In this document: positions 32,578 to 52,573 of the stretch, piece by piece
Layout of the letters: every line of letters begins with the position of its first letter
Position numbering within the stretch: position 1 is the stretch's first letter
Notes under the pieces: model-generated
The model's input: only the letters and a program-made list of their open reading frames with translations
The model's database searches: none
Told to the model about the DNA's origin: nothing
Origin: Haloarchaeobius salinus
Lineage (GTDB): Archaea > Halobacteriota > Halobacteria > Halobacteriales > Natrialbaceae
NCBI RefSeq assembly: GCF_024464185.1
Contig: NZ_JANHAU010000001.1
Coordinates: 930,001-994,000 of the forward strand
DNA: 64,000 nucleotides
Reading direction: 5' to 3'
Translations under genes and position numbers: made by a program

Positions 32578-32938
32578 TCGTGTCCCTCCCCACCGGCAGC
32601 AGTCCGCTGCCGACCGTTTCCGTGTGTCGCGTTTGATATCGTTTGCATCGTTCGTAGACGAAGTTTCGTTACCGTTCGACCCATCATAAATGGACAGGTT
32701 ACGGTTCGTTTGTCCTATTGCAAGCTCGGTTGTGTTCGGAGCGTCGCCACTGTGCCAGGATGCTCCGATGGCCCGAGCCACGGCTGTCTGTGGCTACCGA
32801 GAGTTATGTAGGGGCCCATCAATAACCTCACGGAAACCGGAGTGAAAGTGAAAACGCGACGGAACGACGAGGGGTGTTGGTTGCAGACCAATTAGTTTCG
32901 CCCGCATCCTTATGCCCCCTCGTGGTGTCGGTCGGTGT
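32578..32938. promoter_or_regulatory. Divergent leader of nrdJ and a small membrane protein
   Basis: This 361-base gap contains no supported gene. Near nrdJ (32629-32677) there is a run of related words in + orientation: cgtttgatat, cgtttgcat, cgttcgtag, cgttac. A TATA-like segment cccatcataaatgg (32680-32693) lies about 110 bases upstream of nrdJ. Near the other gene a ccttatgc box sits 25-32 bases upstream of its ATG. The long nrdJ leader may be regulated, but no riboswitch fold is evident. Confidence 0.4.
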
Positions 32939-46863: not shown

Positions 46864-48990
46864 TCACAGATACGCCGACAGCGCGGCGTCCCGCCGCTCT
46901 CCGAGGTACCGGTCGACACGGTCGTGGTCCCAGCCGAGCGGGGAGACGACGCTGACGGCGGCCCGGGTCGCGAGGTCGGCGTAGAAGTCGGCGTCGTAGC
47001 TCTCGGGCGACTCGAGCGCGAGGCGAACGCGCTCTGTGGTCCGGCCGGCGTCGTCGTCGACCACGACGAACCTGACGGGCTGGCCGGGGTGGCGGTCGAC
47101 GCCGTGCTGTTCGTACCGCCGGAGCGCGCCGACGGTGCGGGTCTCCTGGGTGTACTCGCCGGGGCGCTTGCCCACCCGTTTCGTGACGACGAGGTCGGCG
47201 GGGGCGACCCGGTCCGCGTGGAGGTCGAGCAGGTGCGTCCGCAGGCGGTCGACGACCGGTTCGGGCGCGCGCTCGGTGTCGAGGACCTCGAGCAGGTCGC
47301 GCTGGCAGTCGGCGACCCACTCGGGCGTCGACCGCTGGCGGGCCTCGATGCCCCGCAGTTTGAACGAGCCGTCGTCGGCCCGGCCGACGTAGCGGGTGAG
47401 CGCGCCGGCCTGGGTCCCCCGGCGGGGGACGAACGCCACCCAGTCGTAGTGGGCCTCGTGTTCGAGCCGGATGCCGGCGTCGTCGGTGATCCGCGCGGCC
47501 ACCGTGTCCAGCGGTTCCTGCTCGGCACCCTCCCGTGGGGTCACCCACAGCGAGTCGACGATGGCGTGGGCGACGTGCCAGCCAGCCCGCTCCAGTTCGG
47601 CCTTGGCGTCGAGCAGCACCTCGCGTGCGAACGCGTTGATGGTCTCGTGGCACTCGATGCGGCCGAACTTGGCGTTCCGGTAGCCCTGGTAGCCGAAGCA
47701 GGAGACGAGCACCCACTTGATGGCGGCCGACCTGGCGGCGAGCCCGTCGTCGTCCACGTCGCCGGCGTCGTCACCGACGGACAGGGCGGCGAGCCGTTCC
47801 TTGAAATCGGCCCGGTCGTCGAGCAGCGGCGCGAGCACGTCCGGGAGGAACCCCGGCTCGTCGCAGACGGCGTAGCCGAGACCGGGCACGTCGTCGCGGT
47901 CGCCGTGGCAGTCGCAGCCGACCGTCTCGGGGCTGACGTTGTGCTCGCGGATGACGTTCGGGTACAGCGACGCGAAGTCCAGCTCGTGGACGTCCTCGTG
48001 GAGCCCCACCTCGGGCGAGAGGGTGACGCCGCCGCGGTCGGCGGCATGGAGCGTCCGCGCGGGCTTGAACGACTCGGGCTCCCACTTGTTCCAGGGGACG
48101 AGTACCCCGCGTGCCAGGGCCTCCCGGCTCTGCATCGCGGTGAGGACGGTGCCGATGCTCGCCCACGCGGTCTCCTGCAGCGGTCGCCACGAGCGCTCGA
48201 CCATGTAGCGCAGGCCCGCGAGGCTGGACTCGTTCCAGAGGAAGCTGGAGCCGGTGACGACGATGGCCCGTCCGGGGACCGCGTACCGGGCGGGCGAGTG
48301 CCCGACCCGCCCGTAGCTCTCGTAGGTGTTCTCGCCCGCCAGCCGGGTCCAGCCCGGTCGCCGTCCGAGCTCGAGGTCGACGCCGTGCTCGTCGGCGGCC
48401 GCAGCCAGCGTCGGGACGAGGTCGGCGTGCGAGAGGAGGAGTACGTCGGGGTCGACGTGGGCGAGCCGGCGGGCGAGCGTCCGCAGGGCTGCACCGGGCG
48501 TTCCGCCCGCCGGCTCGCCGTCGACACGGATCTCCGCCACGCGGCCGTGGGCCAGCGCCGCCTCGTCGATGTCGATGCGGAGTGTTCGAAGGGGGTCGGT
48601 CGGCACCGGCGAGGTGTCCGTCTCGACGCAGTACCGGAACCCGGGCGCGAAGTCCACGTCGAACAGCCGGAACGTCCCCGGCGCGTGGCTGCCGCGCTCG
48701 TGGTGGTGGCGGATCTCGTTCGCGAGCGTGCGGACCTCGGAGACGCGCTCGCAGTCCACCCGGAGCACCGGCTCGGGCGCGTCGGCGTGGAGGTCGAGCC
48801 GCCACTCCGCCGTCGCCGTCCCGACGACCTTCGGGTCGGCTTCGAGGGCGGCCGCCAGGTCTGCCCGGGCGTCATCGGGACCGGCGACGTACAGCGTCGG
48901 GTGGTAGTCGGTGTTCTCGACGGCCACCACCCCGTCGCCGTCGCGGTGCCACTCGACGACGCGGTCCGCCTGGAAGTCGAGCGCGAACAT
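46864..48990 (-). CDS. polB2: PolB2-like family B DNA polymerase
   Basis: A 708-residue polymerase, shorter than replicative PolB. Motif A is intact: DFASLYPNVIREHN with Asp338. In motif B Lys425 remains but the usual Asn-Ser-x-Tyr-Gly reads VSCFGY. In motif C the canonical DTD reads Ile477-Val-Asp479, so the first Asp is lost and the second, which is the key metal ligand in family B enzymes, remains. The exonuclease motifs are degenerate (IDIDEAAL, then SHADLVP). It may be an error-prone enzyme without proofreading. It overlaps the upstream gene by one base. Confidence 0.88.
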   Translation of the reverse strand: MFALDFQADRVVEWHRDGDGVVAVENTDYHPTLYVAGPDDARADLAAALEADPKVVGTATAEWRLDLHADAPEPVLRVDCERVSEVRTLANEIRHHHERGSHAPGTFRLFDVDFAPGFRYCVETDTSPVPTDPLRTLRIDIDEAALAHGRVAEIRVDGEPAGGTPGAALRTLARRLAHVDPDVLLLSHADLVPTLAAAADEHGVDLELGRRPGWTRLAGENTYESYGRVGHSPARYAVPGRAIVVTGSSFLWNESSLAGLRYMVERSWRPLQETAWASIGTVLTAMQSREALARGVLVPWNKWEPESFKPARTLHAADRGGVTLSPEVGLHEDVHELDFASLYPNVIREHNVSPETVGCDCHGDRDDVPGLGYAVCDEPGFLPDVLAPLLDDRADFKERLAALSVGDDAGDVDDDGLAARSAAIKWVLVSCFGYQGYRNAKFGRIECHETINAFAREVLLDAKAELERAGWHVAHAIVDSLWVTPREGAEQEPLDTVAARITDDAGIRLEHEAHYDWVAFVPRRGTQAGALTRYVGRADDGSFKLRGIEARQRSTPEWVADCQRDLLEVLDTERAPEPVVDRLRTHLLDLHADRVAPADLVVTKRVGKRPGEYTQETRTVGALRRYEQHGVDRHPGQPVRFVVVDDDAGRTTERVRLALESPESYDADFYADLATRAAVSVVSPLGWDHDRVDRYLGERRDAALSAYL

Positions 48991-49349
48991 CAGTCGTCCG
49001 CCCCGTTGCAGTCGTCGGTTTCCTCGGCAGCGGCGGCGGCAGTCTCCTCGGCGGCGTCGCCGTCGTCCGGGTCGTCGGACACGGCGACCACCTCGTGGCC
49101 CTCCGCGGCCGCCAGCCGCTCGTTTAGCTCCCGGATCTCGGCCTCGTGGGCGAGCAGCATCGACAGCAGCGTCGCGACCGCGGGGTCGGTCGCGTTCCGG
49201 TAGCTGGCGGCGTGGGCGGTGGCGTCGGCGCGCTCGAACAGCCGGTCGAAGTCGAGCTGGTGCTCGTACCGGAGCGCCCGCCGGAACGGGTGGTACCGCT
49301 GCTCGAAGTCGCGGAGCTGGTCGCGGTAGGTGGGGTTCGTCCGCCCCAT
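48990..49349 (-). CDS. Small charged protein between RecA-like gene and polB2
   Basis: A 119-residue soluble protein. Residues 1-75 are helical and aromatic-rich (YRDQLRDFEQRYHPFRRALR, then TDPAVATLLSMLLAHEAEIR), and the last 35 residues are an acidic tail (DDPDDGDAAEE). It has no recognised domain. It starts one base after the RecA-like gene and its stop overlaps the polymerase start (TGATG), so it is part of the same unit. In bacterial mutagenesis cassettes a small or inactive subunit takes such a place. Confidence 0.75.
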   Translation of the reverse strand: MGRTNPTYRDQLRDFEQRYHPFRRALRYEHQLDFDRLFERADATAHAASYRNATDPAVATLLSMLLAHEAEIRELNERLAAAEGHEVVAVSDDPDDGDAAEETAAAAAEETDDCNGADD

Positions 49350-49350
49350 C

Positions 49351-50013
49351 TCAGACACCCCCGAAGGCGGCGAGGGTCGCGTCCGGGGCGACCACGTCGG
49401 TGAGTTCGACGGCCGGCCTGTCGGCGACCGCGCCGCAGCGGTCGACCCAGTACGGCACCGTGGTCTGCCAGCCACCGTCGACGGGGTACACGGTCGTCTC
49501 GAACGACTCGCCCTCGTAGCGCAGTCCGAAGTCGGTCCGGGTGCAGTCGAGCTCGCGGTCGGCCACGGCGGCGACCGCGTCGCGGGCCTCGCCGCGGGCG
49601 GTCACGAGCACCGGTACGTCGCCGGCGCCGGCGAGGTCGGCCAGCACGGCCACCGTCGCGGCGCGCAGGTCCGCTGCCTCCTGCTCGGGCACGTCGCCGT
49701 CGCGGTAGAGCGAGCCGAGGTTCGGGCAGACGACGAGGCCGGTCCGGCCGTCGACGCGCCCGACCAGCTCGCGGACGAGCTCGTGGTGCTGGTAGGCGGT
49801 GAACGCGCGGGCGACGTGCACCCGGTCGAGAAGCCGGTCGGTCCGTGCGACCTCGGCGAGCGCGTACGTCGTCGCCGTGTTCCGGGCGTCGACCCAGTAC
49901 GCGGGCCGGCCGTCCGTGAGCGTGCGTGCGACGAGGTGATGCAGCGCGGTCGAGCGAGTGTCGGGCGTTGCGAGCAGCGTCAGTCCGGGGTCGAGCGTCG
50001 GTTCGTGCGCCAT
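49351..50013 (-). CDS. RecA/RadB-fold protein without Walker motifs
   Basis: A 220-residue protein whose order of strands follows RadB. The position of Walker A reads ATPDTRST (residues 15-22) in place of GPPxxGKT. The Walker B segment reads LVVCPNLGSLYRD where RadB has LVVVDSATGFYR, so the acidic residue is gone. ATP hydrolysis is therefore unlikely. Such inactive RecA relatives (ImuA, SulA-like) can recruit a polymerase. It heads the operon with the small protein and polB2. A TATA-like ctttagta lies about 25 bases upstream on its strand. Confidence 0.7.
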   Translation of the reverse strand: MAHEPTLDPGLTLLATPDTRSTALHHLVARTLTDGRPAYWVDARNTATTYALAEVARTDRLLDRVHVARAFTAYQHHELVRELVGRVDGRTGLVVCPNLGSLYRDGDVPEQEAADLRAATVAVLADLAGAGDVPVLVTARGEARDAVAAVADRELDCTRTDFGLRYEGESFETTVYPVDGGWQTTVPYWVDRCGAVADRPAVELTDVVAPDATLAAFGGV

Positions 50014-50056: not shown

Positions 50057-50075
50057 GTTCCGGAAGTTCCGGGAA
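50057..50075. promoter_or_regulatory. Motif cluster upstream of the polB2 operon, proximal
   Basis: Two abutting nine-base units, gttccggaa (50057-50065) and gttccggga (50066-50074), lie about 45-60 bases upstream of the first gene and just upstream of its TATA-like box. The core TTCCGGAA is self-complementary. Confidence 0.6.
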
Positions 50076-50119: not shown

Positions 50120-50150
50120 GTTCCGGGAGCGTTCCGGAAACGTTCCGGAA
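50120..50150. promoter_or_regulatory. Motif cluster upstream of the polB2 operon, distal
   Basis: Three nine-base units, gttccggga (50120-50128), gttccggaa (50131-50139) and gttccggaa (50142-50150), are spaced exactly 11 bases apart, about one helical turn. They match the proximal cluster. The arrangement places the units on one face of the DNA, as in cooperative operators. Confidence 0.6.
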
Positions 50151-50165: not shown

Positions 50166-51335
50166 TCAGCGCAGCCGCAGTCGCCAGTTCGAGCCGTCCA
50201 GCAGGTCGACCCCCTCGGCGTCGTGGACGCGGGCCACGGTGTCGTCGAGCGGGAGGGTAAACGCGGTGTCGTCGGGGGGCGTCACCCGGGATAGCGGTGG
50301 GCGGCCGTCCGACCGGAAGCCGAAGCGCGACAGCAGGTCGGCCGGGAGCAGCCGCTCGCGGTGGACGAGTCCGTACGTCGAGACGTTCGCCGCGTCACGG
50401 TTGTCCGCGAGGACGGCGCGAAGCAGCGTCGCGAACGCCGGCCGCGTCGACGGCGTGCACGCCGGGACCGCGTCGGCGAGGACCACCGTCGAGTCGTCGC
50501 CCGGGCGGCGCTTGACCAGGAGTGCGGCGACCGACCGTGGGCCGTCCCAGGCGACGTACGTCTCGTACGTCCAGCCGGGGTTGTCGGCGAGCCAGCGGTA
50601 GAACGTCGGTTCGCGCCGCGTGTGGAGGCCGTCCGGCGGGTCGCGCTCGTAGAGCCTCGCCAGCAGCCCGGGGGCGAGGCGGTCGCGACGGTCGACCCCC
50701 AGTCCCGAAGCGGCCACCAGTGCAGGCAGGTCGACCGCGAGCCCGTCCCTGACCGCCCGGTAGCCCCGTCCCATCCCGTTCGCCACCGCGTGGGCGACCT
50801 CGTCGGCCGGGGCCGGGAGATGGCTGTCGACGAACCGGCCGGGCCGCTGGACGCGAACGTGCTTCCCCGGGCCGGTTCCGAGGCGTTCGGCCCCGAGCTG
50901 CCGGTAGCCGGGGGCCGACAGCTCGTTGCTGTAGTTGAAACAGAGCGAGACCCCGGCGTCGGCGAAGTGCTCGAACCCGTGGGCCATCATCCGGGTGAAC
51001 AGCCCGCGTCGGCGGTGCTCGGGGTGGACCATGACACTCACGAGGAACAGCCCGGCCAGGTCGGTGTCGCCGACCCGCATCGGCACCGGGACCGCCGGGC
51101 GGGCACCGACGACGGTGTCGTCGGTCTCGGCGACCAGCATCGACGTGCCGTCGAAGTACGGGTTCTTCACGTACTTGTAGGCGAGCCAGTCGGCGTCGTG
51201 CTCGCTCCCCCAGACGGTCCGGTAGAGGTCGAGGACGTCGGCCGCGTCGTCCCGCTCGTACGGCCGGACCGTGTACCGGTCGTTGCCCTGGTCCTCCGTC
51301 CGCTCCGTGGTCCGAACCGACGACGACTGCGCCAT
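50166..51335 (-). CDS. GNAT-family N-acetyltransferase
   Basis: A 389-residue protein. The first GNAT fold covers residues 20-150, with the acetyl-CoA loop VMVHPEHRRRGLFTRMM. The second half is a further domain with GNAT-like elements (YETYVAWDGPRSVAALLVKR). The substrate is unknown. It lies between orc1/cdc6 and the polB2 operon on the same strand, about 95 bases after the first and 150 before the second. Confidence 0.82.
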   Translation of the reverse strand: MAQSSSVRTTERTEDQGNDRYTVRPYERDDAADVLDLYRTVWGSEHDADWLAYKYVKNPYFDGTSMLVAETDDTVVGARPAVPVPMRVGDTDLAGLFLVSVMVHPEHRRRGLFTRMMAHGFEHFADAGVSLCFNYSNELSAPGYRQLGAERLGTGPGKHVRVQRPGRFVDSHLPAPADEVAHAVANGMGRGYRAVRDGLAVDLPALVAASGLGVDRRDRLAPGLLARLYERDPPDGLHTRREPTFYRWLADNPGWTYETYVAWDGPRSVAALLVKRRPGDDSTVVLADAVPACTPSTRPAFATLLRAVLADNRDAANVSTYGLVHRERLLPADLLSRFGFRSDGRPPLSRVTPPDDTAFTLPLDDTVARVHDAEGVDLLDGSNWRLRLR

Positions 51336-51430
51336 CGACCATGAAACCACCGGCTACGGGTATTGTTATCCGATTGCTGCGGCGGCGTAGCGGGCCGCTA
51401 CCGACCGACGGCACACCCCCCGGGACGCGG

Positions 51431-52447
51431 TCAGGGCGCGGGTGCGGGCTCGACGAGACGGTACGTCCGCCCCCGGCCATCGCCGGTCTTCTCCAGCAGG
51501 TCGTACTCGCAGAGCTTGTTCAGGTGCTTCCGGCGGGTGCGCCTGACGTGTGGGTCGTCCACCCGGACCTCGTAGCGCTCGTGTAGCGTCGCCGAGCCGA
51601 GTTCGCCGGCGTCCCGGACGACCTCGTACAGCACGCGCTGGTGGGCGGTGAGCTTCGAGAGGGTCTTCCGACGCACGTCGTGCTCGGCCTCGGGGATGGC
51701 CGCGGTGACGTGCTCGGGCTCGAGGCGTCCCGAACCGGCGTCCTCGGCGTTCCGGGCGGCGGCACGGAGCACGTTGATGGCGAGGCGTGCGTCGCCGGCG
51801 GCGGCGTCGGCGATGCGCTCGAGCTGGGCGTCGTCGACGGTGCCGGGCTCGAACCCCATGCGCACCCGGTCGACGAGGATGGCGGCCAGCTGGTCGGTCG
51901 TGTACGGCTGCATCCGGATGGAGGCGCAGGTCCGCAGCCGGCTCTGGAGGCGCGGGTCGAGCTCCGCGAGGAACGTCTCCTCCTGGTTGGCGACGAGGAC
52001 GACCGCGACGTGGGGGATCTGGTAGAGGTCGTACAGCACGGCGGTGTCCTGGAGCACGTCGACCTCGTCGAGGATGGCGATGTACGGCTCGCGGTGGTCG
52101 CGCAGTCGGCGGACCAGCTCGTCGACGGGCGTCGACGACCGGTGGACGTCCGCTCCCGCGTCGACGTTCACGAGCAGCCGTTCGAGCACGGCAAAGCGTG
52201 TCGAGTCCGTCCAGCAGTTGACGTACTCGTGGGCCACGTCGCGCACCTCGCGGCAGAACTGCGAGACGATGTACTGCGCACAGCAGGTCTTGCCCGTGCC
52301 CGGCGGCCCGTGGAGGAAGACGTTGCCCGGCCGGTCGTCGTCGGCGACGGGCGCGAGTGCGGTCGAGAGCTGGTTGCACTCGGCGTTCCGGTGGCGCACC
52401 TCGGAGGGGACCCACTCGTCGCGCAGCACCCGGGGGTCCGTGATCAT
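51431..52447 (-). CDS. orc: Orc1/Cdc6 replication initiator family protein
   Basis: A 338-residue AAA+ protein with C-terminal winged helix. Walker A is GPPGTGKT at 47-54, Walker B is AILDEVD at 124-130, and the sensor region reads VVLVANQEETFLAELDPRLQSRL. The winged helix covers about 255-335 (LYEVVRDAGELGSATLHERY). Haloarchaea have many paralogues; this one is shorter than main origin initiators (about 400 residues). No clear origin recognition box repeats are visible nearby, so an origin role is not supported. Confidence 0.9.
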   Translation of the reverse strand: MITDPRVLRDEWVPSEVRHRNAECNQLSTALAPVADDDRPGNVFLHGPPGTGKTCCAQYIVSQFCREVRDVAHEYVNCWTDSTRFAVLERLLVNVDAGADVHRSSTPVDELVRRLRDHREPYIAILDEVDVLQDTAVLYDLYQIPHVAVVLVANQEETFLAELDPRLQSRLRTCASIRMQPYTTDQLAAILVDRVRMGFEPGTVDDAQLERIADAAAGDARLAINVLRAAARNAEDAGSGRLEPEHVTAAIPEAEHDVRRKTLSKLTAHQRVLYEVVRDAGELGSATLHERYEVRVDDPHVRRTRRKHLNKLCEYDLLEKTGDGRGRTYRLVEPAPAP

Positions 52448-52573
52448 CGCCCGGTGGTTCGTCGGCGAGGACCGTAAGTCGACGGAGACCGGAGTGGAAG
52501 TGGTCCGGGACCCCGACGACCGACAACGATAAGTCACTGAGCCGCCGTCTTTCGGTAGCTTCGACGGGTAGTC

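Follow-up and report, generated by a model that had tools for sequence, protein, structure and literature searches.

In 2014, PolB2, an inactivated RadA and an arCOG07300 protein were described as encoded by one predicted archaeal operon, in whose vicinity an orc gene lies (Makarova et al. 2014, PMC4104785). The complex was later modelled by Timinskas et al. (2025, PMC11791011), who named its smaller members PPB2 and iRadA, called the assembly the PolB2 mutasome and compared it with Pol V. A PCNA-binding motif in PolB2 or iRadA is a feature of part of this family. The experimental work that we found on the family comes from Sulfolobus. Its Dpo2, which lacks the first motif-C Asp, equals the replicase in activity and was shown by Feng and colleagues to be an extender polymerase that elongates mismatched and lesion-paired primers (PMC8764526); it is also needed for damage-induced, targeted mutagenesis (PMC7390963). 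Papers on Sulfolobus also describe its PolB2-type polymerase as damage-inducible. Among haloarchaea, polB2 of Haloferax volcanii (HVO_A0065) is deletable according to an unpublished statement in PMC7776575, and our literature search found no measured activity or assay of any haloarchaeal PolB2 or PolB2 complex.

The window analysed here is a stretch of 64,000 nucleotides of the Haloarchaeobius salinus genome (contig NZ_JANHAU010000001.1, positions 930,001 to 994,000). It contains a complete haloarchaeal PolB2 mutasome operon, an ordinary member of the known family (Table 1). An initial annotation of this DNA had proposed an archaeal mutasome made of a RecA-like protein, a small protein and an altered PolB. 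The proposal agrees with the published PolB2 mutasome, whose defining features tested at the sequence level are all found here, and the idea is already known: the operon dates from 2014, its name and model from 2025. The three proteins, the gene order, the PolB2 residues, the MGRT arm, the inactive RadA and the orc1/cdc6 neighbour are common to the locus and to the published family (PMC4104785, PMC11791011). The locus does not differ in kind from that family; its promoter sites (see below) are an addition that we did not find in the family's papers. Chance is excluded as an explanation because the NCBIfam PolB2-type subfamily model NF004418 gives PolB2 a score of 910.6 bits (cut-off 692) and because the genes are jointly conserved. 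All three genes had been said to touch or overlap: the PPB2 TGA and the PolB2 ATG do overlap by 1 nt, but iRadA and PPB2 are separated by a gap of 1 nt. The GNAT acetyltransferase gene between orc and iRadA is missing at the corresponding place in a same-genus relative (G002) and may be a recent insertion.

Table 1. Features of the mutasome locus and of linked or related genes. Coordinates are those of the window unless a locus number precedes them.
Feature	Coordinates	Strand	Remarks
PolB2 polymerase	46864..48990	(-)	708 aa; ATG at 48990, stop ends 46864
PPB2 (arCOG07300-like)	48990..49349	(-)	119 aa, helical, MGRT start, Arg3 and Arg9; ATG at 49349, TGA 48992-48990
iRadA	49351..50013	(-)	220 aa, RadA/Rad51 fold; ATG at 50013, TGA 49353-49351
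TATA-like TTTAGTAA	50035..50042	(-)	~25-30 bp ahead of the iRadA ATG
Proposed operator, downstream block	50057..50074	(-)	two (T/C)TCCGGAAC sites, 9 bp apart, immediately 5' of the TATA-like box
Proposed operator, upstream block	50120..50150	(-)	three (T/C)TCCGGAAC sites, 11 bp apart: 50142-50150, 50131-50139, 50120-50128
GNAT acetyltransferase gene	50166..51350	(-)	between orc and iRadA
Short Orc1/Cdc6 paralogue	51431..52447	(-)	338 aa with an intact Walker A; its linkage is conserved and it is the proposed regulator
CCACTTCCACTCCGG in the orc promoter	52489..52503	(-)	degenerate copy of the haloarchaeal UV motif TTTCACTTTCA
Stand-alone exonuclease genes	L025:2878-3522; L045:1586-2230; L055:3988-4635; L017:8115-8759; others

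PolB2 retains both Asp338 of motif A (DFASLYP) and Asp479 of motif C, as had been noted initially together with the loss of the first motif-C Asp. The latter motif reads H475-A-I477-V-D479, as compared to Y-x-D-T-D in active relatives, an Ile replacing the first Asp. It fits the HxxxD pattern published for PolB2, and the D(K/R) motif, Asp318-Arg319, is likewise as published (PMC8764526, PMC11791011). The loss of the first Asp is typical of PolB2 and does not abolish activity in Dpo2. The exonuclease motifs had been reported as lost. An ExoI remnant, D140-x-D142, remains, while ExoII and ExoIII are unmatched in an alignment that is weak in this region (2-4 bits); the active site of the proofreading exonuclease thus appears to be lost, the ExoII/III part of this reading resting on that weak alignment. 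The C-terminus, ...DAALSAYL, contains an L-x-x-(F/Y) pattern found in 15/15 sequences compared, the canonical PCNA-box Gln being missing. Sulfolobus Dpo2 (PMC7390963, PMC8764526) has in common with this protein the polymerase subfamily, the HxxxD motif C and the lack of a working exonuclease; it is experimentally active, whereas the haloarchaeal PolB2 is known here from sequence alone.

iRadA has lost both Walker motifs, as the initial annotation stated: the GKT/S of Walker A is missing and a Pro occupies the Walker B Asp position in the alignment. The N-terminal domain is also absent. When its alignment profile is compared with solved structures, RadA and Rad51 are matched by sequence (best E 2.7e-9), and its AlphaFold2 model (pLDDT 87) superimposes on the ATPase domains of Rad51, Dmc1 and RadA with Z values of 15-17 and ~3 Å over 170-180 residues. 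Its tail, DATLAAFG, was looked at as a PCNA box and is not conserved in the alignment. The possibility that iRadA is an active RadA recombinase was rejected, as it lacks the Walker A GxxxxGK(T/S) and the Walker B Asp; the true RadA of the window genome is encoded elsewhere (L096). No extra copies of PPB2 or iRadA were found in this genome. Another genome (G015) harbors extra iRadA genes at C1:564425-565030 and 604450-605049, with no PolB2 nearby, in keeping with the copies made up of iRadA and PPB2 alone that PMC4104785 mentions.

PPB2 begins with M1, G2, R3 and T4, which together with R9 are invariant in 18 haloarchaeal sequences. Its monomer is modelled as helical with modest confidence (pLDDT 76). 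A fold search returned 25 of 31 chains at Z values of only 2-4.5, a sigma factor among them, which is too weak for use; profile comparison with solved structures gave matches at chance level only, and no match to a Y-family polymerase was obtained.

Conservation of the three genes together, on which the initial annotation had in part staked its proposal, is found in a gene-order survey of 80 haloarchaeal loci (L numbers). The loci fall into two types. Those of the chromosomal type share 51-61% identity with the window and have the order iRadA-PPB2-PolB2, PPB2 and PolB2 abutting; those of the second type, ~46-50% identical and often plasmid-borne, can have PolB2 1.6-4.4 kb away from iRadA-PPB2. 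iRadA and PolB2 are both present in 29 of 51 related genomes and both missing in the other 22, the two sets being identical; the spacing between them, counted from coordinates, is about one PPB2 length in 22 of the 29. In the plasmid-type operons L025 to L083, the PPB2-PolB2 interval is highly variable (0 to 4.4 kb), and PolB2 has its own promoter of a like type. In Haloarchaeobius iranensis (L063:5185 onwards), the reading frame of the N-terminal part of orc continues directly into PolB2 at motif A and is followed by a stop. This reads as an apparent single deletion of everything between orc and PolB2 motif A, which would have destroyed the mutasome locus. The system is dispensable, since 22 of the 51 related genomes lack it and this species has a broken locus.

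We consider it very probable that the locus is a PolB2 mutasome devoted to damage-induced lesion bypass with attendant mutations, its induction probably passing through the Orc paralogue at the promoter repeats. DNA damage would induce the operon; a PPB2 trimer and iRadA would assemble on PolB2 in the predicted complex, iRadA docking at a Rad51-oligomerisation-like motif of PolB2 (published model, PMC11791011) and one PPB2 extending its MGRT arm toward the primer-template. PolB2, having no working proofreading, would then extend distorted or mismatched primer ends beyond lesions, favoring survival at the cost of mutations. Polymerase activity, the extender role, mutagenesis and damage induction are carried over from Sulfolobus, and the haloarchaeal proteins are presumed to behave likewise. 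According to an older view (2008/2014), the PolB2-iRadA-PPB2 complex is instead a catalytically dead scaffold that regulates replication or clears stalled forks without synthesis. The missing first motif-C Asp and the degraded proofreading domain are compatible with it, as is the orc neighbour, which suggested a replication role (PMC4104785). Yet Asp338 and Asp479 are retained, and Dpo2, with the same Asp loss, matches the replicase in activity (PMC8764526) and is required for targeted mutagenesis (PMC7390963), so that we regard a dead scaffold as improbable.

The initial annotation had also likened the layout to the bacterial imuA-imuB-dnaE2 cassette. The analogy holds for the layout, a RecA-like protein followed by a second protein and an error-prone polymerase, and extends to how such systems work, ImuA-ImuB-DnaE2 and E. 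coli Pol V (UmuD'2C-RecA) both combining a RecA-family partner and a small subunit with a damage-bypass polymerase. It does not reach homology. The bacterial polymerases belong to other families, the RecA-family partner is inactive here, and a UmuD or ImuB homologue is absent. Descent from a bacterial imuA-imuB-dnaE2 or umuDC cassette that archaea acquired by transfer is scarcely tenable, as the polymerase is of family B and not C or Y, the small protein is a helical one of 119 residues without Y-family match, iRadA matches RadA/Rad51, and bacterial PolB2 operons are thought to be archaeal in origin and not the reverse (PMC11791011). Membership of the locus in the imuA-imuB-dnaE2 group was rejected on the polymerase family, which is that of neither the C-family DnaE2 nor the Y-family ImuB.

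The mutasome operon is preceded by an array of repeats. The 152 bp upstream of iRadA hold five (T/C)TCCGGAAC sites (TTCCGGAAC-like), at -137, -126, -115, -61 and -52, and the spacing of the TATA-like box makes a leaderless iRadA transcript likely. Dinucleotide shuffles contain a mean of 0.10 such sites and a maximum of 3, 0 of 5000 reaching five. The tandem arrangement is unique in the 3.85-Mb genome at up to two mismatches, one further site appearing at three. Within the genus, G001 (PolB2 74% identical) carries TTCCGGAAC sites in both blocks with the positions of the downstream pair unchanged, and in G002 (PolB2 92% identical) both blocks hold altered sites, TTCGG(C/A)A(C/T). Related sites are TTTCGGAAA in Natrialbaceae relatives, TTCCGTGAA in L014 and L017, and TTCTGGAAAC and TTCCCTGAAACGCGGAAGCGACACGCC in plasmid-type loci, and a split-off PolB2 has the same element in its own promoter. 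The downstream block, written as a regular expression without use of the orc promoters, matches 52 times in 2.16 million positions; almost every match precedes iRadA or PolB2, and one precedes the orc of L022. A broader pattern occurs before iRadA in 34/49 loci and before split polB2 in 20/28, counts that are partly by construction, both patterns having been drawn from iRadA and PolB2 promoters, and that come from related, non-independent loci. It also occurs before orc in 22/28 loci, these promoters having been seen before this count. By comparison, it is present at 0.84% of random positions and at the starts of 4 of 320 other genes, one of these being an iRadA gene and two the exonuclease gene after PPB2. 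Repeated promoter sites common, in many relatives, to the mutasome and its linked orc look new, as we found no description of them in the PolB2 literature.

The orc promoter of the window itself does not carry TTCCGGAAC. The UV motif TTTCACTTTCA, known from ~50 bp upstream of radA1 and of other UV-B-induced genes (Boubriak et al. 2008, PMC2556686), is absent from the window's iRadA promoter and occurs just as a degenerate copy before its orc (Table 1), the counterpart in L063 being CCACTTTCACTCCGG. In the window genome, radA, RPA (replication factor A) and nrdJ each have an exact copy of TTTCACTTTCA in front, and hef has one with a single mismatch. The copy before nrdJ, an adenosylcobalamin-dependent ribonucleotide reductase gene, lies within the window, at 32843-32853 (-). 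Among the surveyed loci, TTTCACTTTCA is found exactly before iRadA in L005 and before orc in L013; TTTCAC sites resembling it are found before iRadA in L015, L016, L018 and L084, and before orc in L014, L017 and L063. In chromosomal-type loci whose iRadA promoter could be classified, TTTCAC sites coincide with the lack of a linked orc in the stretch examined (5/5), and TTC-GAA sites with its presence (11/12), a difference whose Fisher p of 0.001 is descriptive only, the classes having been set after viewing the sequences and the loci being related.

The Orc proteins of the window and G002 are 95% identical over residues 1-270, and identical at only 27/38 positions across the last 38. The wing of the winged helix reads TGDGRGRTYR in the window, EGETSSRVYR in G002 and EGEGRARTYR in G001, where TTCCGGAAC is kept. 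The operator changed only in G002, together with the Orc wing, a single event that is no more than suggestive.

The Orc paralogue probably acts on these sites, a link much less certain than the identity of the mutasome: damage would induce the paralogue, which would act at the TTCCGGAAC-like repeats of the operon promoter. A two-step relay can tentatively be drawn from the sequence comparisons, with slightly less than an even chance of being right. In it, a general UV-responsive motif of the TTTCACTTTCA type would turn on a dedicated Orc1/Cdc6 paralogue, which would bind a fast-evolving two-block TTCCGGAA-type operator in front of the mutasome genes and, in many cases, of the orc gene itself; in lineages without a linked orc, the mutasome would be directly under the UV motif. 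The Sulfolobus Orc1-2 damage regulon (site ANTTTC, PMC9738581) likewise comprises a Walker A-intact Orc1/Cdc6 paralogue linked to damage-response genes, with apparent self-control, but the sites here are repeats of the TTC-GAA type and Orc binding to them is presumed. The repeats may instead be the site of another factor or a promoter-strength element, orc being linked for a different reason such as local replication, which is a serious possibility if not quite a probable one. The window's orc promoter is without TTCCGGAAC, linkage by itself does not show regulation, and the sites are putative. Such a view has to accommodate the like sites at equal distance before orc itself in most loci, the joint change of operator and Orc wing in G002, and the role of an Orc paralogue as damage-response regulator in Sulfolobus (PMC9738581). 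If true, the two-step relay would provide an archaeal mutasome operator outside Sulfolobus and an Orc-type damage regulator common to distant archaea, and the promoter pattern would tie the UV motif of 2008, the long-noted orc neighbour and the mutasome into one circuit. The pattern also lets one ask whether Orc1/Cdc6 proteins are damage regulators beyond Sulfolobales, and the locus adds one more example of the family in haloarchaea, which are genetically easy.

Many split plasmid-type operons encode, directly 3' of PPB2, a stand-alone RNase H-like exonuclease of ~215 residues (FDIETTGF motif, PF13482; Table 1), and in Salinibaculum a stand-alone exonuclease gene directly follows PolB2. This enzyme could possibly provide proofreading in trans or be an unrelated nuclease. 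It may be a general nuclease, because the copy of the window genome sits away from the operon, near probable DndC-type and RAMP-like genes as read from the sequence. Another contig holds the remains of a second PolB2 gene, one of the plasmid type (L094; G000 C7:161172-161816 and 156669-156848). They are 84% identical to the Halorubrum type across the C-terminal part and would represent a decayed second mutasome.
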